Source: Fusobacterium sp. DD2
Lineage (GTDB): Bacteria; Fusobacteriota; Fusobacteriia; Fusobacteriales; Fusobacteriaceae
Reading direction: 5' to 3'
DNA: 41,853 nt
Assembly (NCBI RefSeq): GCF_018205345.1
Contig: NZ_JADRHM010000014.1
Span: 1-41,853 of the forward strand
Part shown: positions 29-22,514 of the stretch, one piece after another
Layout of the letters: every line of letters begins with the position of its first letter
Numbering within the stretch: position 1 is the first letter of the stretch
Translations under genes and position numbers: made by a program
The notes under the pieces: model-generated
Seen by the model: only the letters and a program-made list of their open reading frames with translations
Told to the model about the DNA's origin: nothing
Database searches by the model: none

Positions 29-121
29 TGGCGGAAGCGTGTAGGAATCGAACCTACCAACGATTAAAAATCGCCCTACAGTTTTGAAGACTGCTGAAAA
101 CACCAGTTTTCTTCCGCTTCC
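29..121 (-). tRNA. selC: tRNA-Sec (anticodon UCA)
   Basis: Reads UGA codons for selenocysteine together with SelB. On the minus strand the 93-nt sequence folds with a long acceptor stem (GGAAGCG against CGCTTCC), a six-pair D stem (GAAAAC/GTTTTC) typical of tRNA-Sec, an anticodon loop CTTCAAA with anticodon TCA at 85-87, a long variable arm (CGATT/AATCG) and a T arm GTAGG-TTCGATT-CCTAC. The discriminator G and an encoded CCA end occupy 32 to 29. It begins 1 nt after the stop codon of the DUF3343 gene, so it is probably cut out of the sel operon mRNA. A T-rich stretch follows at 1-28, but I see no clear GC-rich terminator. Confidence 0.97.
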
Positions 122-2840: not shown

Positions 2841-4214
2841 TTAGTAGATTTCCTTTATATTTTTTGCTTTATTTAGGATAACTGGAATATCTTCATCAAA
2901 GATTGTCTTTAAATCAATTATAAAGGCATCTTCTGAAATACGCCCAATTATATTTGTATCTCCTTCACGGAATTGTTTTTCAATTACTTGTGGATTTCCT
3001 TTAAATCTAACAGCATAGCTAGGGACAGTTTCTTCTGGCATTGACCCCCCACCTATTTTAGCTCTTGTTTTTATAATTGTTGTTTTAATATTTAACTCTG
3101 AAAGCTTTGAGTATAATTCATCAGCTTTTTTATAAACATCTTTTTCATTTTCAGTAATCATCCTTAAAGTTGGAATCTCTTTTATAGCTTCTCTTTCATC
3201 TAAGTAAAGTTGTAGAGTCATTTCAAGCGTACTTAGAACCATTTTATCAACTCTAAAAGCTCTTAAGTATGGATTGTTTTTAAGACGCTCTATAAGTTCT
3301 TTTCTTCCTAAAATAATACCACATTGAGGGCCACCTAAAAGTTTGTCTCCACTTATTGTGACAATGTCGATTCCTGAGGCTATACTTTCCTGAACAGTAG
3401 GCTCCTTTGTAATACCATATTTAGAAAAATCAACAAGAACTCCACTTCCTAAATCTTCCATAGTAAGGATGTTATTATCTTTCCCTAATTTTGCAATTTC
3501 ATGATTAGGAACAGACTCTGTAAATCCAATTATTTTAAAATTAGATGTGTGTACTTTCAGTATTAAACCAGTTTCTTCATCAATTGCTCTCTCATAGTCA
3601 AATAAATGAGTTTTATTTGTACTTCCTACTTCTTTTAAAGTAGAACCTGAAAGTTCCATAATTTCAGGTATTCTAAAAGAACCACCAATTTCAACAAGTT
3701 CCCCTCTGGAAACTATTGATTTTTTTCCTTTGGCAAATTCATTTAAACATATAACAACTGCTGCTGCATTGTTATTAACTACAAGTGCAGATTCAGCACC
3801 TGTAAGCTTGCAAATTATCTCTTCTACGTGAGAATTTCTATTCCCTCTCATACCAGTTGAAATTTTGTACTCAAGGTTGTTATAACCAGTAGCTATTTCT
3901 GATACATATTCAAAGACCCTTTTATTTAAAATAGAACGTCCAAGATTTGTATGGATAATAACTCCAGTTCCATTTATTACTCTTTTTAAATTATGCTGGT
4001 TGTATTTTTTAGAATTATTTAAAATATTATCAATAATCTCTTCTAATGAGAAATCTTCAATCTCTTTATTTTTAATTTTATTTCTAAAGTTAGCAATTTC
4101 ATCAGTTACTAATTGATAAAAAGAGTTATAATTAAGTTTTTTTTCAAGTTCACTTAATCTTTTATCCTTCATTAAAATATCTACTTTCGGTAGTTTACGA
4201 AAAAGATTTTGCAT
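2841..4214 (-). CDS. selA: L-seryl-tRNA(Sec) selenium transferase SelA
   Basis: A PLP-dependent enzyme that converts Ser-tRNA-Sec to Sec-tRNA-Sec using selenophosphate from SelD. At 457 residues it has the usual bacterial length. The N-terminal domain (residues 1-80) is the tRNA-binding part. The core carries [16 protein letters not shown], the PLP-fold segment VVNNNAAAV, and the PLP lysine in [12 protein letters not shown] at about residue 289. The ATG is 3 nt from the end of selD, its ribosome site lies within selD, and its stop is 1 nt from selB, so selD-selA-selB is tightly coupled. No missing motifs are visible. Confidence 0.97.
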
Positions 4215-4217
4215 GTT

Positions 4218-5249
4218 TTACCTCACAATCAAATATTTATTCTGTTTTTCTTCAACAGAACCTACGATAAATGCGTCAACATTTTTTGACTTAAATTCAT
4301 TTAGAAGATTTCCTAGATATTCAGGTGAAATTGAAAATAGTAATCCTCCAGATGTTTGGGGATCAAAAAGAATCTCCTGTAACCATAAAGGTGTTTTTTC
4401 AAATTCGATATCTCTACCTACGAAATTTCTATTTAGTTGCCCACCAGTTGTGATCATAAAATCTTTAGCATACTGATCAGCACCAGTAATGAATGGAATA
4501 AATTCCTGTTCAAAAATTAAAGTTTTTTCTGAACCTTTTGCCATTTCATATGCATGACCTAGGAAACCAAATCCTGTAATGTCTGTACATGCAGTTACAG
4601 GGTATTTAGTTATTATTTCCCCAGCATATTTATTGAGCATAGTCATATATTTTATACTTTCATCTATTGATTCTTTGCTGGCAAGATTAACTTTTGATGC
4701 AGTTGTAACTACTCCAGTACCAAGTTTCTTAGTATATATAAGTATATCACCATCTTTACATCCATGGTTTTTAAGTATCTTATCAGGATGAGCAAGACCA
4801 GTTACAGAAAGCCCATATTTTATTTCAGGATCATGAATTGAGTGTCCACCACTTAGGACAGCTCCAGCTTCTACAACTTTTTCTGCTCCACCTTTTAAGA
4901 TTTCACCTAATATATGGATATCCATTTTTTGAGGGAAACAAACAATATTCATAGCTGTTTTAGGAGTACCTCCCATTGCATACACATCACTTAGTGAATT
5001 TGCAGCAGCTATTTGTCCAAAAATATATGGATCGTCTACCATAGGTGTAAAGAAATCCAATGTTTGTATCATTGCAATATCATCAGTAAGTTTATAAACT
5101 GATGCGTCATCAGATTTTTCAAATCCAACTATCAGGTTTTCATCTTTCACACTTGGAAGATCTGATAGTATCTCAGAAAGGACCTCTGGTCCTATTTTAC
5201 TTGCTCAGCCACCTACTGAGCATCTATCTAAATGTAATTTTTCACTCAT
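4218..5249 (-). CDS. selD: Selenophosphate synthetase SelD, a selenoprotein (TGA = Sec15)
   Basis: Makes selenophosphate from selenide and ATP for SelA. The reading frame starts at ATG 5249 behind a GGTGG-type ribosome site and runs MSEKLHLDRCSVGG-U, with TGA at 5205-5207 as codon 15, then ASKIGPEV and on to a 343-residue protein. The TGA falls exactly at the catalytic Cys/Sec position of SelD (motif GG-[C/U]-xxK). The rest has the AIR-synthase-like fold with FEKSDDASVY, the metal/ATP-binding DFFTPMVDDPY and GGHSIHDPEIKYG. Stopping at TGA would leave only the segment up to 5150, starting at an internal ATG and lacking the active-site loop. Selenocysteine in SelD is known in other bacteria. 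A hairpin suited to SelB follows the TGA. Confidence 0.95.
5180..5207 (-). promoter_or_regulatory. Bacterial SECIS-like hairpin of selD
   Basis: Twelve nt after the UGA codon, the mRNA can form a perfect five-pair stem GGACC-AGA-GGUCC (5192 to 5180), extendable by an outer A-U pair. Bacterial SECIS elements lie directly downstream of UGA inside the coding region and present a small apical loop to the SelB winged-helix domain. Position and size fit; this loop is AGA with one G. Its function is inferred from the in-frame UGA and the presence of the SelB gene. Confidence 0.75.
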
Positions 5250-10327: not shown

Positions 10328-10652
10328 TTACTATTTTATATGGCCATGTATTTATTCCACCAAACTCATAGATATTTTTATAACCTAGGAAATGAAGTTT
10401 AAGTGCAGCATGAAGACTTCTATGACCACTTCTGCAATAAACAAGAAGTGGTTTATTCATATCTGATAGCTCTTCAGGTGGTTCATACCCTATCTCTTCA
10501 TTTGGAAGATTTATTGCATTTTCTATATGGCCTAAATTAAATTCCTGAGGAGTTCTTACATCTAAAATAATATAGTCTGGATGTTCATCCATCATTTGCT
10601 TTGCTTCTTCGTGACCTATTCTATTATAAGGTAGTGTATTGTTATTATTCAT
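10323..10652 (-). CDS. Single-domain rhodanese-like sulfurtransferase
   Basis: 109-residue rhodanese domain. It has the N-terminal motif YIILDVRTPQEFNLGHIENAINLP and the active-site loop VYCRSGHRS with catalytic Cys73. Such proteins move sulfane sulfur from persulfide donors; the exact partner is unknown. No signal peptide, so it should act in the cytosol. The start ATG 10652 has AAGGTG 6 nt upstream. It is divergent from cas6a across 205 bp and convergent with the YihY gene. Catalytic motif complete. Confidence 0.93.
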   Translation of the reverse strand: MNNNNTLPYNRIGHEEAKQMMDEHPDYIILDVRTPQEFNLGHIENAINLPNEEIGYEPPEELSDMNKPLLVYCRSGHRSLHAALKLHFLGYKNIYEFGGINTWPYKIVK

Positions 10653-10677
10653 TATTTCACCTTTCTAATGTTTATTT

Positions 10678-10759
10678 TTTTACTCAACTATTATAGCATT
10701 AAGAATTCACTGATACAAGTAAAATTTAAAAAATATAGAGGTGTTTTACTTGAGTAAAA
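10678..10759. repeat. Four copies of TTTTACT/AGTAAAA in the rhodanese-cas6a divergent region
   Basis: TTTTACT at 10678-10684, AGTAAAA at 10718-10724, TTTTACT at 10744-10750 and AGTAAAA at 10753-10759. The second and third extend to a perfect nine-base inverted repeat, CAAGTAAAA and TTTTACTTG; the third and fourth form a compact palindrome with a 2-nt centre. They surround the rhodanese promoter and lie just upstream of the cas6a -35 box, so they could be an operator. Low sequence complexity makes chance a real alternative. Confidence 0.4.
10690..10718 (-). promoter_or_regulatory. Promoter of the rhodanese gene
   Basis: On the minus strand: TTGTAT (10718-10713), 17 nt, TATAAT (10695-10690) preceded by TGC, giving an extended -10. 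Transcription would start near 10683, about 30 nt before the ATG. Confidence 0.65.
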
Positions 10760-10770
10760 GTGTATAAAAA

Positions 10771-10804
10771 TTGACAAATGAAGATTATAAGGGTAACCTA
10801 TAAT
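10771..10804 (+). promoter_or_regulatory. Promoter region of cas6a
   Basis: TTGACA at 10771-10776. At 17 nt spacing stands TAACCT (10794-10799), overlapping a perfect TATAAT at 10799-10804, which would be spaced 22 nt. The block GGTAACCT and its exact distance from TTGACA recur before cas6b. Which -10 is used cannot be told from sequence. Confidence 0.55.
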
Positions 10805-10857
10805 TAGAGAGATAAATAATTGAAATTGATTTATATAATAAAAAGGGAGGGGAAAAT

Positions 10858-11559
10858 TTGAAAATTAATTTATGGCAAATAGAATTAAAAGTATTTCTTC
10901 TAAAAGATATTGCCTATAGAGATGTCGTGACAAAAGTGGCAACATTTATAGATAGTGCTCTTTTAAATGATGAAAAATGGAGTACTTATCATTTAGAACA
11001 GAAGTATAAAGGTTATTCGTTCAATTCTTTGTACCCTATAATGAAAAATGGAATATATAAAAAAGGAAGAGTTTATACTGTTCAGATTAGAACAGTGGTG
11101 GAAGAATTAAAAGACTTTTTTATGGAAAGCTTAAAGGATAATATAACAGAGGAAATGAAAGGTTTACTAACTCATGTTAGACCAATGAAAACTAAAAAGA
11201 GTATAGATAAATTAATATCAGTAACACCTTTAGTTATCAAAACTAAAAAATCTTATTGGCGTAAAGAGATGAATGTAGAGCAATTTTTAAAAAAGATATG
11301 TACAAGTATTACAAATCAGTATAAAGAGTTATATGGCGGGACAATAGATGAAAATGTTCCTATTTTTACAGGAATAAAGTTTAGAAATAGATTTCCTATT
11401 GTAACAAGATATAAAAAGGTAAAACTTCTTGGAGAAAAGGTTGTTTTAGAAGTTGCTGATAATGAGATAGCTCAAAAACTTGCATTTTTAAGTTTAGGAG
11501 TTGGAGCTGGACATATGGGTGCAAGAGGATTTTCTTTTATGAATCCTAGGTGGAAGTAA
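10858..11559 (+). CDS. cas6: Cas6 endoribonuclease, first paralogue (type I-B)
   Basis: Cuts pre-crRNA inside the repeat to leave an 8-nt 5' handle. 233 residues with the C-terminal glycine-rich loop of Cas6 (GVGAGHMGARGFSFMN, about 213-228) and the conserved N-terminal region with HLEQKYKGYSFNSL, whose His is a candidate catalytic residue. The start is TTG at 10858 behind AGGGAGGGG. It aligns without gaps over 233 residues to the second Cas6 downstream, at roughly two-thirds identity by eye, so the pair is a duplication. It is cut off from the main operon by a 383-bp gap holding a separate small-RNA unit and a terminator, so it has its own promoter and expression. No sign of decay. Confidence 0.92.
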   Translation: MKINLWQIELKVFLLKDIAYRDVVTKVATFIDSALLNDEKWSTYHLEQKYKGYSFNSLYPIMKNGIYKKGRVYTVQIRTVVEELKDFFMESLKDNITEEMKGLLTHVRPMKTKKSIDKLISVTPLVIKTKKSYWRKEMNVEQFLKKICTSITNQYKELYGGTIDENVPIFTGIKFRNRFPIVTRYKKVKLLGEKVVLEVADNEIAQKLAFLSLGVGAGHMGARGFSFMNPRWK

Positions 11560-11612
11560 GTAATTTTATGAAAAATATAGAAGAGTTTGAATTATGAAAT
11601 ATAAAATTATTA

Positions 11613-11641
11613 TTGTTATAACAGCTAAAATAGGATATAAT
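11613..11641 (+). promoter_or_regulatory. Promoter of the mini-CRISPR (CreR-like) RNA
   Basis: TTGTTA (11613-11618), exactly 17 nt, perfect TATAAT (11636-11641). Transcription would begin near 11648, about 45 nt before the first degenerate repeat. An inverted repeat ATAGGAT (11630-11636) and ATCCTAT (11653-11659) brackets the -10 and start site and could be an operator. Confidence 0.7.
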
Positions 11642-11691
11642 CATTCTTGAAAATCCTATAATTTTAAATTTTTTGTAAAAAAATTTTAGAA

Positions 11692-11721
11692 AAATAATAT
11701 TTACATTGGTGGTATTTAAAT
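11692..11721 (+). repeat. Degenerate CRISPR repeat psi-R1
   Basis: Ungapped 30-nt alignment to the array repeat gives 25/30 identities, with mismatches at positions 2, 3, 4, 9 and 20. The 3' part TTACATTGGTGGTATTTAAAT minus its first base keeps all but one base, including the 5' handle region. Located 9 kb from the array. Confidence 0.92.
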
Positions 11722-11748
11722 ATATACATAAAACTAAAGTATAGGATA

Positions 11749-11778
11749 ATTGAATATTTACAGAAGCTGTATCACAAA
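11749..11778 (+). repeat. Degenerate CRISPR repeat psi-R2 (5' half preserved)
   Basis: Ungapped alignment to the array repeat gives 20/30 identities overall, but 13/14 in the 5' half (ATTGAATATTTACA). It shares with psi-R1 the T at position 9 where the array has A, which suggests a common older repeat version. Its last bases run into the terminator stem. Confidence 0.75.
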
Positions 11779-11804
11779 AAGAGAATTGTAATTCTCTTTT
11801 TGTA
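11776..11804 (+). terminator. Rho-independent terminator of the CreR-like RNA
   Basis: A perfect 12-base inverted repeat, AAAAAGAGAATT (11776-11787) and AATTCTCTTTTT (11790-11801), ending in a T run followed by GTATTT. It closes the mini-CRISPR transcript and would also stop read-through from cas6a, isolating it from the cas6b operon. Confidence 0.88.
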
Positions 11805-11823
11805 TTTACTTTTTTTAATATAT

Positions 11824-11843
11824 TCAATATAAATAAAACTAAA
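11824..11843 (+). promoter_or_regulatory. Predicted target of the CreR-like guide in the cas6b promoter
   Basis: Plus-strand TCA (11824-11826) followed by ATATAAATAAAACTAAA (11827-11843). Compared with the pseudo-spacer ATATACATAAAACTAAA, only position 6 differs. TCA is a known type I-B PAM in clostridia. A 27-nt guide footprint would run to 11853, covering most of the -35 hexamer at 11850-11855. After position 17 the pairing is lost, which would favour binding over Cas3-driven cleavage. Confidence 0.78.
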
Positions 11844-11849
11844 AAGATA

Positions 11850-11884
11850 TTGACAAATATAAAAAATAGAGGTACCCTTATATT
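11850..11884 (+). promoter_or_regulatory. Promoter region of the cas6b-cas2 operon
   Basis: TTGACA at 11850-11855; at 17 nt spacing TACCCT (11873-11878); then TATATT at 11879-11884 (23 nt spacing). It shares with the cas6a promoter TTGACAAAT and the block GGTA-[A/C]-CCT at the identical distance of 21 nt from the start of TTGACA. The CreR-like target lies directly upstream. Confidence 0.6.
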
Positions 11885-11942
11885 AAGATAAAGAAGTAAA
11901 TTAATACATTATTTACAATTATAACACAAAAGGAGGGAAAGT

Positions 11943-12644
11943 ATGAGTATAAATTTGTGGCAGATAGAGCTGAAGGTTTTTCTTCTTAAAGATATTGATC
12001 ATAGAGATGTAATGTCTAAGGTTGCTGTTTTTATTGATACCACTCTTAAAAAGAGTGATAAATGGAAACAGTATCATGAAGAAAAAAAATATAAGAATTA
12101 TTCTTACAACTGTCTCTATCCAATCATGAAGTGTGGTATATATCCTAAAGGAAGGGTGTATACAATACAGATTAGAACAGTTGTAGAAGAGCTTAAAGAT
12201 TTCTTTGTAGAAAATCTGAAAGATAACACTACTGAAGAGATGAAAGGTCTTATAACTGAAGTAAGAGTTTTAAAACCTGATAAGTTTATTGATAAACTTA
12301 TCTCTGTTACACCGCTTATAATTAAAAGTGATAAGCCTTACTGGAGAGAGGACTTAACAGTTGAACAATTTTTAGACAAGATAAGAGTACTACTTACCAA
12401 AAAATATAATGAAATTTACGATGACAAAATTGATGAGGAGATTCAAGTTTTTACTGGAATCAGTTTTAGAAACAAGTGTCCAATAGCAACTAAGTATAAA
12501 AATATACGTATTCTCGGGGAAAAGGTAGAACTAAATGTTGCTAGAAACGAGACTGCACAAAAACTTGCATTTTTAAGTTTAGGTGTTGGTGCAGGTCACA
12601 TGGCAGCTAGAGGATTTTCTTTTATGAATCCTAGATGGATATAA
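11943..12644 (+). CDS. cas6: Cas6 endoribonuclease, second paralogue (type I-B)
   Basis: 233 residues, same length as the upstream copy and alignable without gaps. It has the Cas6 glycine-rich loop GVGAGHMAARGFSFMN near the C-terminus and the N-terminal motif HEEKKYKNYSYNCL with a candidate catalytic His. It is the first gene of the main cas operon; cas8b follows 15 nt later. The ATG at 11943 has AAGGAGGG 7 nt upstream. It would process the array transcript and remain on crRNA as a Cascade component. Unlike the first copy, it lies behind the promoter that the CreR-like guide matches. Confidence 0.94.
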   Translation: MSINLWQIELKVFLLKDIDHRDVMSKVAVFIDTTLKKSDKWKQYHEEKKYKNYSYNCLYPIMKCGIYPKGRVYTIQIRTVVEELKDFFVENLKDNTTEEMKGLITEVRVLKPDKFIDKLISVTPLIIKSDKPYWREDLTVEQFLDKIRVLLTKKYNEIYDDKIDEEIQVFTGISFRNKCPIATKYKNIRILGEKVELNVARNETAQKLAFLSLGVGAGHMAARGFSFMNPRWI

Positions 12645-12659: not shown

Positions 12660-14411
12660 ATGTTGCAGGAATGCATAGAGATATTTAAAAAAGAGTATCT
12701 TGAAAAGGGAGAGAATCTTATTACAGACAACTATAAGCTTGGAGTTGGAGACTATTTCATAGTTAAAGATGATGGAAGCTATAAGCATGTAGTAATAGAT
12801 AAAAAAACAGAACCTAAAAATGAAGAAGAGTATAGTTATTTAGCAGAACGTGATTATCTGAGCAGTCTGTTAGATATGAATAAACCAATGGATAGTACAA
12901 AACAGATTCACTCAAATAACTATCTGAGTTTTTATGTAAAAAATAATGTTCTTACTGAAAAAAAAGAAAAGTTACGTAACAGTATAAAAAGTTTTTATGA
13001 AACTTTAAAGGATCCACGTTTGAAATACAAAGGTGAAAAGAAAAAGAATTATGAAGAACTGGAAGAAAAAATAGGAAAACCTGATACAGATAAAATTGAT
13101 AAAATTCAAGGATGGATTGAAGAAAATCTTTGGAAACTACAAGAGGAAAGTGCAAAAGGAAAAGACTATATAAAAATATTTTTTGATGCTGATTTAGAAG
13201 AATACAAGAAAGAAAATGAAAGGTATGTACTTCCAAATATTTATAATTCTACTGACTTCAATGTTGTTATAGATGAAAAAACTTTTGGATTACCAAATAA
13301 TAACTTAGGATTAAATGCAAAGAAACCGTTCTTAGAAAATAAGACTAGAAAGAAAAAATACACAGTTCCTTATTTACTTAATGAAGAGGATGTATTTTTG
13401 CAGAAAAAATTCTTTGATTATCTTTTTAACTGGGCATGTAAAAATCGCAGAAATATCTATTTTAGTCAGAATGGAATAGAGCAATTTACTGATAAGGATT
13501 TACCTTCAAAAAAAATAAATGGATATTATATGAGAGCTGTAAAAAATAAGAGTGAAGCAGAGATACAGAGATTTGATGTTATAACTAACTATAATCCATA
13601 CTTGGAAAATAGAATCAAGGTATTGGACTATTTAAAGAAAACACATGATTCAAAATATGCAAAGTTAAATTATGGACATGAAATAGAGAGTTTAAAGGCA
13701 TTGATTGAGACTATAAACTCACTTATTTTAAAGGGGAAAATGTATGGAATAATTTTTGAGAATATAAAGGATTTAAAAATAGCAGATTCAAGACTTAAAT
13801 ATATTGGAAATATGTATAAAGATGTTTTCTATAACCTGGTAGTAAGAGGAGACCTGGATGGATTTATTAAAATATACAGGAAACTTTTTATTTACTGTAT
13901 AAAGAGTAGTTTGATAAATAGCAATTATGATTTTGAAGCATGCGAACTTTTTAATTTAATGCTAAGTATAGAAGATAGTTTTGAGGATAAGGAGGGAAGA
14001 TTTATGACACAGGTAAAAGACATTCGTGAAAAGCTCAAAAAATGTTTTGAGAAAAAAGAAGGAGAGTTTGTAAATGATAGGGAGTATTATTTTGCAATAG
14101 GGCAACTGGCACAATTTTTATTGAGTAAAAAGAAAAGTACAAGTAAAACACATGAAAGTACAGTAAGGTTTATAGAAGCTAAATATGATGAAAAACTGAA
14201 GAAAGAGCTAGTACATCTATTTAAAAGATATGGATATGATATAAACAGGTTTAATACTAGATTCAATCTGCTGTTTTCCATGGTTATGGATTATACTCCA
14301 GAAAATAAAAAAGTTGATGAAAGTGGATTATTATGTGGAATTTTAAGCAACTGTTTATTGTATGAAAAAATGGATAAAGCTATAATTGAAAATGAAAATG
14401 AGGAGGCATAG
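12660..14411 (+). CDS. cas8b: Cas8b (Csh1-like) large subunit of type I-B Cascade
   Basis: 583 residues, in the position and size range of the type I-B large subunit that recognises the PAM. Cas8b is poorly conserved, so the call rests on its place between cas6 and cas7/cas5 of the Csh2/Cas5h kind as much as on sequence. It is Lys- and Glu-rich, with no nuclease motif visible. In related I-B systems the C-terminal part of the cas8b gene also yields the small subunit Cas11 by internal initiation; a GGAGG before ATG at about 14004 (ataaGGAGGgaagattt-ATG) would be a candidate internal start. The ATG at 12660 has AGGAGGTGAGG upstream. Confidence 0.85.
   Translation: MLQECIEIFKKEYLEKGENLITDNYKLGVGDYFIVKDDGSYKHVVIDKKTEPKNEEEYSYLAERDYLSSLLDMNKPMDSTKQIHSNNYLSFYVKNNVLTEKKEKLRNSIKSFYETLKDPRLKYKGEKKKNYEELEEKIGKPDTDKIDKIQGWIEENLWKLQEESAKGKDYIKIFFDADLEEYKKENERYVLPNIYNSTDFNVVIDEKTFGLPNNNLGLNAKKPFLENKTRKKKYTVPYLLNEEDVFLQKKFFDYLFNWACKNRRNIYFSQNGIEQFTDKDLPSKKINGYYMRAVKNKSEAEIQRFDVITNYNPYLENRIKVLDYLKKTHDSKYAKLNYGHEIESLKALIETINSLILKGKMYGIIFENIKDLKIADSRLKYIGNMYKDVFYNLVVRGDLDGFIKIYRKLFIYCIKSSLINSNYDFEACELFNLMLSIEDSFEDKEGRFMTQVKDIREKLKKCFEKKEGEFVNDREYYFAIGQLAQFLLSKKKSTSKTHESTVRFIEAKYDEKLKKELVHLFKRYGYDINRFNTRFNLLFSMVMDYTPENKKVDESGLLCGILSNCLLYEKMDKAIIENENEEA
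13990..14411 (+). other. Possible internal Cas11-like small subunit within cas8b
   Basis: Inside cas8b, GGAGG at about 13990-13994 is followed 8 nt later by an in-frame ATG at about 14004 (reading MTQVKDIREKLKK). From there to the shared stop the frame gives about 135 residues, mostly helical and charged, the size of a Cas11 small subunit. Internal translation of Cas11 from the 3' end of cas8 is known for type I-B and related systems. The site is strong for an in-gene sequence, but use is unproven. Confidence 0.5.
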
Positions 14412-14413
14412 TT

Positions 14414-15352
14414 ATGAAAAATAGAGTATATGGTATCATTGGTATTAGCTCTATAATGGCTAACTGGAATGCAGATTTTAGTGGATTTCCAAAGAGCCTT
14501 TCTACAGGGGAAGTATTTGGTAGTGACAAGGCATTAAAATATCCTATGAAAAAAATGTGGGATTCAAATGGTGAAAAAGTTTTATATATAAAAACTATGA
14601 AGGTTGATGAGGATAAGAAAAAAGGTGAAATTTCAGTAAGACCGAAATCACTTAAAGAGAGATATGATGAAATATTTGAAACAAATCTAAAAGAAGAAAA
14701 GGACAAACTTCAGGTTAGAAGAAATCTTTTTAGTGCAATAGATGTAAAAAACTTTGGAGCTACATTTGCAGAAGAAAAAAATAATATAGGGATTACCGGA
14801 GCAGTTCAGATAGGACAAGGACTAAACAGATACGAGGACACATATGCTGAAGAACAACAGATATTATCTCCATTTAGAGATGGAAGTAAAGATGCCGAAG
14901 GAGAAAAAGATCAATCTACTCTTGGAACTAAGATATTTAGTAATGAAGCTCATTATTTCTATCCGTTTACGATAAATCCAGCATCTTATGATGAGTATGT
15001 AAAAATGGGAGTAACTGAAGGGTATACAGAAGAGGATTATAAGAAATTTAAAGAGGCAGCTCTTGTTTCGGCAACATACTACAATTCAAATTCAAAAGCA
15101 GGATGTGAAAACGAGTTTGCGATATTTGTAAAAACTAAGCCTGAATTCTACCTTCCAAACTTAGATCAATATTTGAAATTTGAAAAGGGAGAGGAAATCG
15201 ATACTTTAAAACTTGGATTTGATGAAATGTTAAATGACTGTAAAGATAATATTGTATCAGTAGAAATTTACTATAATACTTTAAACCTAAAGGTAGAACA
15301 TAACATAAAAGGTGCAAAGGAGTTTAATATATTTACAAGAAAAGGAGTATAG
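14414..15352 (+). CDS. cas7: Cas7 (Csh2-type) backbone subunit of type I-B Cascade
   Basis: 312 residues. It forms the helical backbone that holds the crRNA spacer. The start MKNRVYGIIGISSIMANWNAD, with a long charged middle and the segment NFGATFAEE...ITGAVQIGQGLNRYED, is typical of Csh2/Cas7 of I-B. The ATG at 14414 has GGAGG 8 nt upstream and lies 2 nt after the cas8b stop; cas5 begins 2 nt after its own stop, so the three are translated as a unit. No defects seen. Confidence 0.94.
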   Translation: MKNRVYGIIGISSIMANWNADFSGFPKSLSTGEVFGSDKALKYPMKKMWDSNGEKVLYIKTMKVDEDKKKGEISVRPKSLKERYDEIFETNLKEEKDKLQVRRNLFSAIDVKNFGATFAEEKNNIGITGAVQIGQGLNRYEDTYAEEQQILSPFRDGSKDAEGEKDQSTLGTKIFSNEAHYFYPFTINPASYDEYVKMGVTEGYTEEDYKKFKEAALVSATYYNSNSKAGCENEFAIFVKTKPEFYLPNLDQYLKFEKGEEIDTLKLGFDEMLNDCKDNIVSVEIYYNTLNLKVEHNIKGAKEFNIFTRKGV

Positions 15353-15354
15353 TT

Positions 15355-16098
15355 ATGGAGATATTAAAATTCAGGTTAAATGGAAAAACAGCTTTCTTCA
15401 AGAATCCTGAAGTTAATACTTATCTGTATTTTTCATATGGAAATATCCATAAAGTTGCTATACTTGGCATTCTTGGAGCAATACTTGGACTTAAAGGCTA
15501 CAATCAGCAAGGAAGTAAGGAGAACTATCCAGAGTTTTATGAAAAACTTAAAGATATAAAAATAGCTATTGTTCCACTTAATAGCAGAGGAATGTTTGAT
15601 AAGAAAATTCAATCATTTAATAACTCTGTAGGTTATGCCAGTGGAGAAGAGGGTGGAAATCTTATTGTAAAAGAGGAATGGCTTGAGAATGTAGACTGGG
15701 AAATTTATATTTTGATTGATAAAAATAAAGTGGTTCAGGAGCTTAAAGATAGATTATTAAATAGACAATTTAAATATAATATCTATCTTGGAAAAAATGA
15801 TCATCCAGCAAATATCTTGGAAGTTGAACTTTTACAAGGGAAAGAGATCAAAGATATAACTTCTGAAATAGACTCCCTATTCATAAAAGGAGAAGCAGAA
15901 TCTTATACTGAAAATAGTGGATTGAGAAAAAGAAGAAGTGAAATTATCAAATTTCTATATGATGAAAGGCTGCCTTATGCATTGCATGAGCAGTCAAATC
16001 AATATCAAATGAAGAACTTTATTTTTACAAATTACAAACAAAAGATTAATGGAGATAATTTTGTGAAAATAAATGATAAGTTAATACAACTATTTTAA
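15355..16098 (+). CDS. cas5: Cas5 (type I-B, Hmari-like)
   Basis: 247 residues. It caps the 5' handle of the crRNA in Cascade. The start MEILKFRLNGKTAFFKNPEVNTYLYFSY and the following GILGAILGLKGY match the Cas5h/I-B pattern, in which the N-terminal RAMP strand is followed by a short helix that contacts Cas8. The AAGGAG site is about 8 nt upstream of the ATG. It lies 2 nt after cas7 and 22 nt before cas3. Confidence 0.93.
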   Translation: MEILKFRLNGKTAFFKNPEVNTYLYFSYGNIHKVAILGILGAILGLKGYNQQGSKENYPEFYEKLKDIKIAIVPLNSRGMFDKKIQSFNNSVGYASGEEGGNLIVKEEWLENVDWEIYILIDKNKVVQELKDRLLNRQFKYNIYLGKNDHPANILEVELLQGKEIKDITSEIDSLFIKGEAESYTENSGLRKRRSEIIKFLYDERLPYALHEQSNQYQMKNFIFTNYKQKINGDNFVKINDKLIQLF

Positions 16099-16120
16099 AT
16101 AAATAAAGGGAGAGAGGTAA

Positions 16121-18802
16121 GTGTTACTGGAGAATAAATTGATTATGACAAGTGCGGAGAGTGAGATTTTATTAAATAATAAATTCAAGTTGTTTCCGAT
16201 AAAAAAATTTGTAAAGAATATTGATAAATATCTTGCTCATATTGAAAAAGATAGAAAAGAAAAACTTACAGAACACATGATTCTTGTGATGAAAAAATTT
16301 ATCCAAATATGTAATAAAAAAAAACTCTTTCCCATTCTATCAAAATTTTGGAATGGGTCAGAGTCTTTTTTAAATTTCTGGATAGAGATGCTTGTAAATA
16401 CTATATACATGCATGATATAGGAAAAATTAATATAGTATTTCAAAAAGAAAAAATGAATAATTCTATTTCAGATGTAGATTTTGATATGCAGGATTCAAA
16501 ACATTCGCTGTTTTCAGCAGAAATATATATTCAATATTTTATGATGAAACTTAATGATTTATCAGAACAAGATGATGAAAATATAAAAAGGTTAATGTTA
16601 TTTATATATTTGAATGGATATATTATTTCGCGTCATCATACGAAACTAGATAACTATTCTGTTCAACTGAAAAACATATGTGAAGAAATTAATAAGGAAG
16701 ATTTTTTAGAGGAAACAAAAAAATATTGCCCAGATTTAAATTTTAGGGATTTGGATTTAAAGTTTCAAAAAGATTTGAATGCATTAGATTTAAGTTATAA
16801 TTATATATTACACCCAATTGAAGGAGAAGAAAATGAATTAATAGATTCCTATGGAAAAGATTGGGAAAGTATTGATTTGTATGTATATTCAAGACTTGTT
16901 TATGGTCTTCTTGTATCCGCAGATTTCTATGCTACATATGAATTTATGACTGGAAATAAGATAGAAAATCTTGATGTTATTGAGAATGTAGAAGAATTTT
17001 GTGAAAAATTTGATACACATTCTATAATTGAGGGAATTAGGAAACATGATTCAGGAGAAAAGAGATTTGATGAGAAGAATATCAACAAATATAGAAGCGA
17101 GATCTTTGTAGAAGCTGAAAAAACAATTAAGAAAAACGCAGATAAAAACATATTTTATCTGGAATCTCCTACTGGTTCAGGAAAAACTATTACTTCCATA
17201 AATCTTGCATTAACACTTTTAAAAGAAGATAAGAGATTAAGTAATATATTTTATATTTTTCCATTTAACACTTTAGTTGAGCAGACATCCAACTCTTTAC
17301 ATGAGTTTTTTGATTCTGAAAAGATAGGGGTTATAAATTCAATTACACCTATGGATTTTGTAATGAAAAGCAGAAATGGTAGTGGAAAATATTCTGATGT
17401 AAAAGAAAATATAAAATCAGAGGGAAATTATAGTGATATTGATTATGAGGCTACTTTAATGAAACGTCAGTTTATTCATTATCCACTTGTAATAACAACA
17501 CATGTACATTTTTTTAGAGATCTTTTTGGTCTGGAAAGAGATGCGAATTTTGCACTTCCTCATTTGGCAAACAGTGTAGTAATAATGGATGAAATTCAAA
17601 GTTACAAAAGTGACATTTGGAAGGAAACAATAATATTTTTGAAAAAATATGCTGAGCTCTTGAATATAAAAATTATAATAATGTCAGCTACACTTCCAAA
17701 CTTGGGAAAACTTTTAGATACTACTTATGAGATACCAAGTCTTATAGATAGAGCAAAATATTTTAATAATCCGATTTTTAAAGATAGAGTGTGTCCTGAT
17801 TTTAGTCTGCTAAATAAGAATGATAAGAATACTGAAGAAAAAGAAGAGTTTTTTGAACAGTTGATGGAAAAAGTAATCACTGAGTATAAGAGTAATAAAA
17901 AAGTTATAATCGAATTTATTCTTAAGAAAAGTGCAAATGAATTTTTTGCTAAGTTGTCAGAAAATTCTGAAATAGATAAAGCAGATCTTTTTCTTATGAC
18001 TGGTGATGATAACAAAGTAGAAAGAGAGAGAATTATAAATATTACTAAAGAAAAAGAGAGAACAAAAATGATTCTTGTTGCAACTCAAGTGATAGAAGTT
18101 GGAGTTGATATTGATATGGATGTTGGATTTAATAATATATCTCTGCTTGATTCAGAAGAACAATTTTTAGGTCGTATAAACCGTTCTTGTAAAAAGAAGC
18201 AGGCAAAAGCATATTTCTTTTATTATGATGAGCCTAAAATTATCTATAAAGATGAAGTTCGTGTTCAAAACAAAAATCTTTTGATAGAAGATGAAATTCA
18301 GGAAAAACTTTTGAATAAATCCTTTGATAAATACTATCAGATTATTTTGCAAGACCTGAATACTGAAAGTAATAGATTTAATGAAAATAATATTGATACA
18401 TTTAAAAATGGTATTGTCAGAGTTCTTGACTACAGAGGAGTAATGGAGAGAATGGAACTGATAAAGGATAAGGATACTGCTACACTCTATTTGCCAAGTG
18501 TAATAGAGTATAAAGGAAAAACATACGATGGTTTCAAAGCGTGGGATGATTTTAAAGAGCTGTTTGAAAACTCTAAAATAAGTTATGCAGAGAAAAAAGT
18601 TAAAATGGCAGAAATTATGGAGGTTATCAGTCTGTTTTCTTACAATTTACCTAAGGTATATCTCTATGGAATTAGTTATAATGACTACATAGGGGACAGG
18701 ATATTTAGAGTAGATGATTATGAAAAATATTTTGTAAATGGTAAATTTGATAGAAATAGATTGAAACAGTTGAAAGACGATAGTTTTGAATTTATAGTAT
18801 AG
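16121..18802 (+). CDS. cas3: Cas3 HD nuclease-helicase
   Basis: Nicks and unwinds target DNA after Cascade binding. 893 residues with both domains in one chain. The HD nuclease has His52, the HD pair at 98-99 in YMHDIGK, a His near 129 (KHSLF) and the RHH motif near 170. The SF2 helicase has Walker A SPTGSGKT near 350, DEIQ near 491, SAT near 522, a conserved IEVGVDID and the motif VI-like QFLGRINRS near 682. The start is GTG at 16121, with GAGAGG upstream; the first ATG would come 8 codons later. All catalytic motifs are present, so the system should be able to degrade DNA. Confidence 0.96.
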   Translation: MLLENKLIMTSAESEILLNNKFKLFPIKKFVKNIDKYLAHIEKDRKEKLTEHMILVMKKFIQICNKKKLFPILSKFWNGSESFLNFWIEMLVNTIYMHDIGKINIVFQKEKMNNSISDVDFDMQDSKHSLFSAEIYIQYFMMKLNDLSEQDDENIKRLMLFIYLNGYIISRHHTKLDNYSVQLKNICEEINKEDFLEETKKYCPDLNFRDLDLKFQKDLNALDLSYNYILHPIEGEENELIDSYGKDWESIDLYVYSRLVYGLLVSADFYATYEFMTGNKIENLDVIENVEEFCEKFDTHSIIEGIRKHDSGEKRFDEKNINKYRSEIFVEAEKTIKKNADKNIFYLESPTGSGKTITSINLALTLLKEDKRLSNIFYIFPFNTLVEQTSNSLHEFFDSEKIGVINSITPMDFVMKSRNGSGKYSDVKENIKSEGNYSDIDYEATLMKRQFIHYPLVITTHVHFFRDLFGLERDANFALPHLANSVVIMDEIQSYKSDIWKETIIFLKKYAELLNIKIIIMSATLPNLGKLLDTTYEIPSLIDRAKYFNNPIFKDRVCPDFSLLNKNDKNTEEKEEFFEQLMEKVITEYKSNKKVIIEFILKKSANEFFAKLSENSEIDKADLFLMTGDDNKVERERIINITKEKERTKMILVATQVIEVGVDIDMDVGFNNISLLDSEEQFLGRINRSCKKKQAKAYFFYYDEPKIIYKDEVRVQNKNLLIEDEIQEKLLNKSFDKYYQIILQDLNTESNRFNENNIDTFKNGIVRVLDYRGVMERMELIKDKDTATLYLPSVIEYKGKTYDGFKAWDDFKELFENSKISYAEKKVKMAEIMEVISLFSYNLPKVYLYGISYNDYIGDRIFRVDDYEKYFVNGKFDRNRLKQLKDDSFEFIV

Positions 18803-18809
18803 GAGGAAT

Positions 18810-19295
18810 ATGATCAATATAACAGGAACTGTAGTCAATTATTATGTGCATTGTAAAAGGCAATGTTATCTATTTTACAATAAGATAGAGATGGAGGATG
18901 AAAGTGAACTTGTTAGAATTGGACGTGCCCTTCATGAAGAAAAAGAAACTGAAGAGATAGCTATTGAAAATATCAAATTGGATAAAATGAAAGGTGACTA
19001 TCTTATAGAACTAAAAAAATCTGATGCTGATTTAGATGCTGCAAAAGCTCAGCTTCTGTATTATCTTTATATTTTAAAAAATAAGGGTATAGTAAAAAAA
19101 GGTAAAATAGAAGTTGTAGAAAAAAATAAGCAGAATCACAAAGTAATTGAAGTTTTACTTGATGAACAAAATGAAAATTATTTAAAAAAAATGCTTACAG
19201 ATATAGAAGAATTATTAGAAAAGAATAAAGTTCCAAAGGTAGAGAAGGATAAGAAATGTAAAAAATGTGCCTATTATCCATACTGTTATATATAG
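18810..19295 (+). CDS. cas4: Cas4 exonuclease, adaptation protein
   Basis: 161 residues. A RecB-like nuclease with an iron-sulfur cluster that trims prespacers and selects PAM-proximal ends. Cluster cysteines: one N-terminal (Cys15 or Cys19 in HCKRQC) and three C-terminal (Cys150, 153, 159 in CKKCAYYPYC). The nuclease core shows the short motif YLIELKKSD with the E-x-K pair, followed by DLDAAKAQLLYYLYIL. AGGAGG stands 5 nt before the ATG. It sits between cas3 and cas1 as in other I-B loci. Confidence 0.95.
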   Translation: MINITGTVVNYYVHCKRQCYLFYNKIEMEDESELVRIGRALHEEKETEEIAIENIKLDKMKGDYLIELKKSDADLDAAKAQLLYYLYILKNKGIVKKGKIEVVEKNKQNHKVIEVLLDEQNENYLKKMLTDIEELLEKNKVPKVEKDKKCKKCAYYPYCYI

Positions 19296-19306
19296 GAGGG
19301 TAGGAT

Positions 19307-20317
19307 ATGCGTAGATTGAGAACCAGCACTAGAGTAATAATGAGTATGGGAACGTTAGAGAGAAAGGATAATTCTTTATGTTTTAAAGGAGAAGGTAAAA
19401 AAGTATATATTCCTGTTGAAAATACTAAAGAAATATATGCACTTCAGGAAATTAATCTAAATAGCAAATTATTTGGATTGCTTGCAAAACATGGGATAAT
19501 ATTGCATATTTTTGATTATTATTGTAACTACTGTGGAAGTTTTTATCCACGTGAGAAGCATATAAGTGGTAAATTAACAATAGAACAAGTAGGTTGTTAT
19601 CATAAATATAAGGAAAAAATAGCAAAAAGGATTGTCAGTGGAATAGGAAAAAATATATATGAAGTTTTATACCACTATTATAGACATGGAAAGCAAGAGT
19701 TGAAAGAGTATCTTGACTGGCTTGCGTTAAAGGTAGATGAGAGACTGGAAGAGTGTGTAACAATAAACGATATTATGGCAGTAGAAGGTGAAATTTGGAG
19801 TAAGTTCTACAATTCATTTCAATATTTTCTTAATCCAGATTTTATAATGAATAAGCGTGTTAAAAGGCCACCTGATAATCCGATAAATGCGTTGATATCT
19901 TTTGGAAATAGTGTTCTTTACACAAAAACTATCTCTCAATTATACCAAACTCAACTAGATCCGAGTATAAGTTTCTTGCATTCACCAGCAGAAAGAAGAC
20001 TTTCATTGTCTTTGGATCTTTCAGAGGTATTTAAACCTATAATAGTATTTAAAACAATTTTTGAATGTATAAACAATAGACGTCTAAGTGTGGAAAAACA
20101 TTTTAGGAAGAAATATAACTACTGTTTACTAAATGATGACGGAAAACAAATATTTTTAACAGAATTGTTTTTACGTATGGAGGAAACCTTCCTGAATCCC
20201 AAACTTAATAAAACCATGAGCTACCTCACAGCAATAAAATATGATGGATACAAGCTGATTAAATTTATATTAGAAGGAGAAGAATTCTATCCTTTTAACA
20301 TCAAGGAGAAGATTTAA
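19307..20317 (+). CDS. cas1: Cas1 integrase of type I-B
   Basis: 336 residues. Joins new spacers to the leader end of the array as a complex with Cas2. The metal-binding residues are seen as Glu in MAVEGEIWSKFY (about 160), His in FLHSPAERRLSL (about 225) and the Asp/Glu pair in LDLSEVFKP (about 237-241). The ATG at 19307 has GGAGG about 8 nt upstream. Its stop overlaps the cas2 start by one base (TAATG), a mark of coupled translation. Confidence 0.97.
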   Translation: MRRLRTSTRVIMSMGTLERKDNSLCFKGEGKKVYIPVENTKEIYALQEINLNSKLFGLLAKHGIILHIFDYYCNYCGSFYPREKHISGKLTIEQVGCYHKYKEKIAKRIVSGIGKNIYEVLYHYYRHGKQELKEYLDWLALKVDERLEECVTINDIMAVEGEIWSKFYNSFQYFLNPDFIMNKRVKRPPDNPINALISFGNSVLYTKTISQLYQTQLDPSISFLHSPAERRLSLSLDLSEVFKPIIVFKTIFECINNRRLSVEKHFRKKYNYCLLNDDGKQIFLTELFLRMEETFLNPKLNKTMSYLTAIKYDGYKLIKFILEGEEFYPFNIKEKI

Positions 20318-20607
20318 TGAGTAGGAATAGATATAATTTTAACTATATTTTTCTTTTTTATGATGTAAATGAAAAAAGAGTAAATAAGATTTTTAAAGTA
20401 TGTAAAAAATATTTAACACATTATCAGAGATCTGTTTTTAGAGGAGAAATAACACCAGGTAATCTTCTAAAATTAAAAAATGAGGTAAGGAAAGTTATTA
20501 ATGAAAAAGAGGACTCTGTATGTATAGTCAAATTTATAAATGATAGGTATTTTGCAGAAGATACACTAGGAGTGCTATGGAAAGAAGATGAAGATTGTTT
20601 TATATGA
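20317..20607 (+). CDS. cas2: Cas2 adaptation subunit
   Basis: 96 residues. A dimeric scaffold that bridges two Cas1 dimers during spacer integration. Beta strand 1 with the conserved Asp is in YIFLFYDVNEKRVNK; the middle has YQRSVFRGEITPGNLLKL, typical of Cas2. It is the last cas gene, followed by the leader and array. Confidence 0.96.
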   Translation: MSRNRYNFNYIFLFYDVNEKRVNKIFKVCKKYLTHYQRSVFRGEITPGNLLKLKNEVRKVINEKEDSVCIVKFINDRYFAEDTLGVLWKEDEDCFI

Positions 20608-20780: not shown

Positions 20781-22514
20781 ATTGAATAATTACATTGGTA
20801 GTATTTAAATACTGGTTCTCCATTTACAAAAGCAGGACCTTTAAACATTGAATAATTACATTGGTAGTATTTAAATTCACAAGGAACTTTACACCAAAAT
20901 TCAAGGTTTTTATTGAATAATTACATTGGTAGTATTTAAATTATGAACTTGAATTAGTTAAAAATGTTTCAGCTGGATTGAATAATTACATTGGTAGTAT
21001 TTAAATTGCCAGAATTTAGGCTTATTGAGCACGAAAAAACGGATTGAATAATTACATTGGTAGTATTTAAATTCTTTTCCAAACTTTTCTTCTGTTATTT
21101 TTTCAAGCATTGAATAATTACATTGGTAGTATTTAAATTGGCAGTTAATATCTTTTAAATCCTTATTATAAAAATTGAATAATTACATTGGTAGTATTTA
21201 AATTCACTTCCAAGCCAAACTGCACCAAATGAACCTCTTATTGAATAATTACATTGGTAGTATTTAAATAAGGATTGATTATGACTTAGATGATGATTTG
21301 CTTGAGATTGAATAATTACATTGGTAGTATTTAAATTCATCCGAATTAGTCATCTCATCTGTCCACCCCATCATTGAATAATTACATTGGTAGTATTTAA
21401 ATCAAAAATACAGAAGTCTTTACAATACTGATGGAATATTGAATAATTACATTGGTAGTATTTAAATGGGCCGTTGTTTATTATTTTATCCCCATCAATC
21501 CAATTGAATAATTACATTGGTAGTATTTAAATTCACTTCCAAGCCAAACTGCACCAAATGAACCTCTTATTGAATAATTACATTGGTAGTATTTAAATTT
21601 TTTTAATTCATCCTTTTTATAATTTTGGAATTTTATTGAATAATTACATTGGTAGTATTTAAATAATCTACAAAACATATAGATTTATTGAAAGTTATTG
21701 ATTGAATAATTACATTGGTAGTATTTAAATAATTAAAGTTTATAAATAATTTCAAAACTAAACAGAATTGAATAATTACATTGGTAGTATTTAAATAGTT
21801 ATACTTCCAACGTGTTGAAGAGAGCAAAAAAAAATTGAATAATTACATTGGTAGTATTTAAATTATTCTATTGATTTAGGGGAAAGAAAAAACCCCTCTA
21901 TTGAATAATTACATTGGTAGTATTTAAATGTGAAACGGATCACTCCTGGGGGTATTCAAAAAAAAATGAATAATTACATTGGTAGTATTTAAATTAAGTG
22001 AAAACGCCCCCCTTTACAAAGTGTTTACATTGAATAATTACATTGGTAGTATTTAAATAACTCCATAGGTATTATAACATACCTCAAAAACCTATTGAAT
22101 AATTACATTGGTAGTATTTAAATGCTATTACTCCTCTTTCTCTAATATTCCCTATATCAAATTGAATAATTACATTGGTAGTATTTAAATTATTGTTATA
22201 ATAGCTTTTGTAAGTTGTGTTTAAAATTGAATAATTACATTGGTAGTATTTAAATCTTAAAGCAGATTTTAAACCAACAGAAAAAGAAGTATTGAATAAT
22301 TACATTGGTAGTATTTAAATTAAACATACTTGATACAACTGCATTCATTAGTTCATTGAATAATTACATTGGTAGTATTTAAATTTTAGAGTTTTCAGAG
22401 TCTCCAATGTTTCACTTCTATTGAATAATTACATTGGTAGTATTTAAATGTAGTAACACGAGGGCTCTTTAGTTTATCAACAAAATTGAATAATTACACA
22501 GGTAGTATTTAAAT
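20781..22514 (+). CRISPR. Type I-B CRISPR array, 27 repeats and 26 spacers
   Basis: A 30-nt repeat starting ATTGAATAATTACA and ending TATTTAAAT occurs 27 times, from 20781-20810 to 22485-22514, with spacers of 34-37 nt. All copies look identical except repeat 19 (21965: second base A for T) and the last one (TT to CA at positions 15-16), which marks the old, leader-distal end. The 3' eight bases ATTTAAAT would form the crRNA 5' handle. The repeat has little palindrome, so Cas6 likely reads it unstructured. Spacers 7 (21204-21239) and 12 (21533-21568) are identical. I cannot name the targets. Confidence 0.99.

Follow-up and report, generated by a model that had tools for sequence, protein, structure and literature searches.

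The window, by which we mean the whole stretch of DNA that was analysed (41,853 nucleotides of contig NZ_JADRHM010000014.1 from Fusobacterium sp. DD2), carries a type I-B CRISPR-Cas locus on its plus strand. The locus begins with two adjacent cas6 genes. Copy 1 (10858-11559) scored 51.8 bits against TIGR01877, just under the cut-off of 58.65, and copy 2 (11943-12644) scored 60.7 bits. Copy 2 is the first gene of an operon that continues with cas8b, cas7, cas5, cas3, cas4, cas1 and cas2 (12660-20607). The NCBIfam models named cas5b, cas3, cas4, cas1b and cas2 and, more weakly, cas7; cas8b has no NCBIfam basis and was identified by where it lies and by its homologues elsewhere in I-B loci. The open reading frames of all cas genes of the locus are intact.

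An ordinary CRISPR array lies at 20781-22514 on the plus strand, and it includes 27 repeats (ATTGAATAATTACATTGGTAGTATTTAAAT) and spacers of 34-37 nt. One of these spacers, which begins with TCACTTCCAAGCCAAACTGCACC, is present twice (21204-21239 and 21533-21568). In addition, a selenocysteine tRNA (Rfam RF01852) was found at the edge of the window (33-121, minus strand). A minus-strand ORF at 11546-11827 was taken by eye as a chance ORF.

A degenerate CRISPR unit between the two cas6 copies

Between the two cas6 copies, we found a degenerate repeat-spacer-repeat unit at 11692-11778 on the plus strand. The first repeat (psiR1, 11692-11721) is identical to the array repeat at 25 of 30 positions, and none of 20,000 simulations reached so much. 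The last 10 nt of psiR1 (GTATTTAAAT), with the 8-nt 5′ handle ATTTAAAT, are exactly those of the array repeat. The pseudo-spacer (psiS, 11722-11748) has 27 nt, compared with 34-37 nt for the array spacers. The second repeat (psiR2, 11749-11778) is more diverged, with 20 of 30 identical positions overall and 13 of 14 in its first 14 nt. The likeness of its 5′ half to the repeat at that place has a P of about 2.5e-4, and psiR2 keeps the hairpin TACAG-AAG-CTGTA. The initial annotation had placed the start of the feature at 11722; the unit is real, but that start omits the first degenerate repeat.

The unit is followed by an intrinsic-terminator-like hairpin of 13 pairs (11774-11803, plus strand), which would form the end of a guide RNA. 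It is the only terminator-like site in 10650-12000, where 0.2 would be expected. A promoter-like sequence for the guide RNA (TTGTTA-17 nt-TATAAT, 11613-11641, plus strand) agrees with the consensus at 10 of 12 positions. This is a weak point, since the promoter of the mini-CRISPR is a consensus match only and such matches were equally frequent in shuffled sequences.

No other clear ectopic repeat besides the array was reported in the organism's own genome, and a BLAST search with the mini-CRISPR region within the family returned AT-rich noise only. Meanwhile, the first 9 nt of psiR2 (11749-11757, ATTGAATAT) are the reverse complement of 11820-11828 (ATATTCAAT, which holds the TCA triplet discussed below), and this inverted pair frames the terminator hairpin. 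This could be a coincidence.

Match of the pseudo-spacer to the cas operon promoter

Nucleotides 1-17 of psiS (11722-11738, ATATACATAAAACTAAA) match 11827-11843 (ATATAAATAAAACTAAA, non-target strand, plus) at 16 of 17 positions, with a single C/A mismatch at position 6. The match starts exactly at the border of repeat and spacer, as expected of a protospacer. Position 18, which is the next flipped-out position, is also mismatched; pairing ends at 17 and the similarity then stops. Directly 5′ of the target lies TCA (11824-11826). The same triplet works as a PAM in the type I-B system of C. pasteurianum and has been predicted as a PAM for other clostridia (PMC4860712). Here, we regard this triplet as PAM-like, and it also borders the match of a second mini-CRISPR and one near-match of a plasmid array (see below). 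The match, its mismatch, the adjacent triplet and the end of pairing had all been claimed in the initial annotation, and each can be read directly from the DNA.

The target is placed immediately ahead of the cas operon promoter, which was recognised by eye at 11850-11878 on the plus strand (TTGACA at 11850-11855, 17 nt, and TACCCT at 11873-11878). TACCCT aligns with the GAGGTATAAT box upstream of cas6 in relatives; the promoter as a whole scores below the threshold of the consensus promoter search. It had been proposed that the footprint of the bound complex reaches the −35 hexamer of a cas6b operon. The match does lie at the promoter of this operon; the gene called cas6b is the second in a pair of neighbouring cas6 genes. 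Position 11850 would be covered by a full-length Cascade, but the 17-nt match itself ends 6 bp short of the TTGACA box. This geometry is a weak point, because a steric block assumes a footprint that extends beyond the pairing.

Both matching stretches are very AT-rich, and a looser match pattern was found 35 times in the window compared with 18.5 in shuffled sequences. These observations would favour a chance likeness between the two stretches. To estimate its frequency, spacers were simulated with order-1 to order-3 Markov models of the local AT-rich sequence and compared with both strands of the 164-bp upstream region. A match with at most one mismatch was obtained in 7e-5 to 2.1e-4 of trials (0.7-2 per 10,000), and such a match beside TCA in none of 100,000 trials per model (<1e-5). 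Furthermore, the only other site with at most one mismatch to psiS on either strand of the genome (2.36 Mb) was C45:6544, where the mismatch is at nt 13 and the preceding triplet is ATT, not TCA. The ordinary spacers of seven loci (the window and six others) reached 14 of 17 at most against the upstream region of their own cas6. Chance is therefore an unlikely source of the match, as had been argued initially in spite of the AT-richness. Had the likeness come from a local duplication with no connection to CRISPR, there would be little reason for it to end precisely where repeat and spacer meet. Taken together, we consider a likeness of either kind hardly credible.

The ordinary spacers yielded no convincing protospacer from which a PAM could be read in phage records, family genomes and four exact viral scans. 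The one 20-nt viral match of a spacer (L058) failed to extend, and a match in the organism's own genome (C85) has 10 mismatches over 36; both were rejected as protospacers.

The proposed autoregulatory circuit and known systems

The CreR regulators derived from modulatory mini-CRISPRs were reportedly described by Liu et al. in 2023 (Cell Host Microbe 31:1481). We think there is a good probability that the unit described here encodes an autoregulatory guide of the CreR type, with which Cascade would repress its own cas operon. We infer the steps of transcription, processing, binding, repression and release as follows. A short transcript of about 11648-11803 would be cut by Cas6 at both degenerate repeats, and the product would resemble a crRNA, keep the 8-nt 5′ handle intact and start with ATTTAAAT-ATATACATAAAAC. 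Loaded in type I-B Cascade, this guide would recognise TCA and the 17 nt that follow, with position 6 flipped out, at a site that closely precedes the −35 box from which the cas6-2-to-cas2 operon would be transcribed. The pairing would be too short for Cas3 cutting, and the complex would only block RNA polymerase. Spare Cascade would thereby repress its own operon, and ordinary crRNAs or anti-CRISPRs that occupy or disable Cascade would bring relief.

Published work on type I-B systems offers precedents for each of these steps. Repression by haloarchaeal CreA depends on pseudo-spacer nt 1-5 and 7-11 alone, and nt 6 is dispensable (PMC8501985), so the mismatch at position 6 should be tolerable, as was initially supposed. 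In the I-B system of Parageobacillus, complementarity of up to 26 nt represses without interference (PMC10551041), and this agrees with the earlier expectation of binding without cutting. According to two reviews, RNAs of the CreR kind direct Cascade or Cas12a to the promoters of their own cas genes, and they respond to crRNA abundance and to anti-CRISPRs (PMC12737573, PMC12948488).

In these reviews, a mini-CRISPR beside the cas genes gives rise to a crRNA-like RNA (PMC12737573, PMC12948488), and such an RNA is predicted from the sequence here. Further points of likeness to CreR as described there are a spacer-like sequence that matches the cognate cas promoter in part and around the seed, and the type I effector. 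CreR has no linked toxin gene; here, no plus-strand ORF of at least 80 aa lies between the target and cas6-2. The differences from those descriptions are that the present system is a type I-B system of Fusobacteriota and that the unit lies between two cas6 copies, of which one has a promoter without a target. The locus fits the CreR plan in every respect that can be seen in its sequence. Thus, the mini-CRISPR is probably a further example of CreR, a regulator already described. The circuit as proposed, including release by titration or blocking of the effector, is the published CreR circuit and is not new in kind.

CreA of the haloarchaeal I-B system CreTA shares the psiR1-psiS-psiR2 plan, the intact 8-nt 5′ handle, the seed pairing broken at position 6 and a PAM, here the PAM-like TCA, at a promoter (PMC8501985, PMC9458426). 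This common RNA architecture would also suit a CreTA/CrePA-like addiction unit, in which the guide represses not the cas genes but a toxin (an RNA or a small ORF), and the second mini-CRISPR described below does target a site upstream of an 86-aa ORF. However, the target at the present locus closely precedes the −35 box of cas6-2. The interval from target to cas6-2 is taken up by the promoter and a leader of about 60 nt, and no plus-strand ORF of at least 80 aa lies in it; a very short RNA toxin would fall below that search. In addition, no other site in the genome with at most one mismatch stands beside TCA. We therefore regard a toxin-directed guide as very unlikely. CreA also differs in that its target is a toxin and not the cas operon, in that it uses 11 paired positions compared with 17 here, which is a weak point of the comparison, and in that psiR2 (20/30) has diverged more than psiR1 (25/30) here. 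In Francisella novicida, scaRNA and Cas9 offer another likeness: a degenerate-repeat RNA reportedly redirects the effector and represses transcription by about 15 bp of pairing, but that system is of type II and targets lipoprotein genes (cited in PMC9458426).

Relatives, origin of the unit and the duplicated cas6

A close cas7 was present in 8 of 98 Fusobacteriota genomes, including that of the organism itself, and none of the relatives compared carries the unit or its pseudo-spacer. Four genomes of the same genus (cas8b 53-55% identical) have one cas6 with an ordinary array directly upstream, in the same position as the mini-CRISPR of the window. Thus, the mini-CRISPR was most likely derived from such an upstream array.

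The array decay that these four relatives suggest as an origin, together with the lack of visible conservation of the unit among relatives, would also be compatible with a functionless scar, that is, the decayed tail of an array that once preceded cas6 and had accidentally acquired its last spacer from the own cas promoter. Against this, the parts that were kept are those that a guide needs, namely the 8-nt handle, the seed except position 6, the TCA, the 5′ half and hairpin of psiR2 and the terminator. Moreover, a cell could not survive a working spacer against its own DNA unless that spacer were trimmed, and pairing was lost on the PAM-distal side only. We consider a mere relic improbable, and we continue with the CreR-type guide as the preferred reading.

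An independent mini-CRISPR was found in a genome of the same order and another Fusobacteriota family (locus L057, G085:C14:34000-53500). It includes a first repeat with 1 mismatch (4134-4163) and a degenerate second repeat near 4186. The start of its spacer matches 4278-4297 at 20 of 20 positions, directly after TCA; no third exact copy of this sequence exists in that genome, where all other sites have 3 mismatches. This independent match beside TCA counts in favour of the CreR-type reading of the unit in the window. The target lies not ahead of cas6 but ahead of an 86-aa hydrophobic ORF (4445-4702), for which Pfam gave no match and a search of 33 genomes of its family gave no homologue. A promoter-like sequence belonging to cas6 itself lies further down. 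Hence this unit may be CreTA/CrePA-like or may represent another form of cas control.

Four plasmid I-B loci from other phyla were also compared. Short arrays lie upstream of the cas genes in two of the four, and these arrays hold no guide that matches the nearby promoter. In the plasmid I-B array of G058, a genome of the same family as the window, an ordinary spacer matches another place on its plasmid at 16 of 17 positions (L018, 9190 and 15339), again directly after TCA. At locus L016 (4184-4219, minus strand, against the array at 13279-14770), a spacer of one array was apparently copied from repeat and spacer sequence in its sister array.

The proteins of the two cas6 copies in the window are 69% identical, and residues conserved in relatives are kept in both. 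The value of dN is 0.22, and dS is saturated. From this dN and the conserved residues, both copies look maintained. The promoter of copy 1 has the same TTGACA box, at 10771 (compared with 11850 for copy 2), and psiS has 8 mismatches at the equivalent place. Targeting of this promoter was rejected, as the best site anywhere upstream has 5 mismatches and no TCA. Because its promoter has no target, copy 1 is predicted to escape the guide loop, and it could keep the guide supplied. We tentatively suggest, as a speculative extension, a split Cas6 supply: cas6 and its promoter would have been duplicated, copy 2 and the operon would have come under the guide, and copy 1 would still process the guide and the crRNAs during repression; the phylum would in addition have turned upstream arrays into guides for different targets (the cas operon here, and a small ORF in the second mini-CRISPR).

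The locus provides a well-formed CreR candidate from Fusobacteriota. Four other species of the genus keep ordinary arrays at this position, so that the transition from array to regulator is open to direct comparison. Meanwhile, a cas6 copy that is predicted to lie outside the loop would offer a natural test of how autoregulation avoids starving the processing of its own guide.
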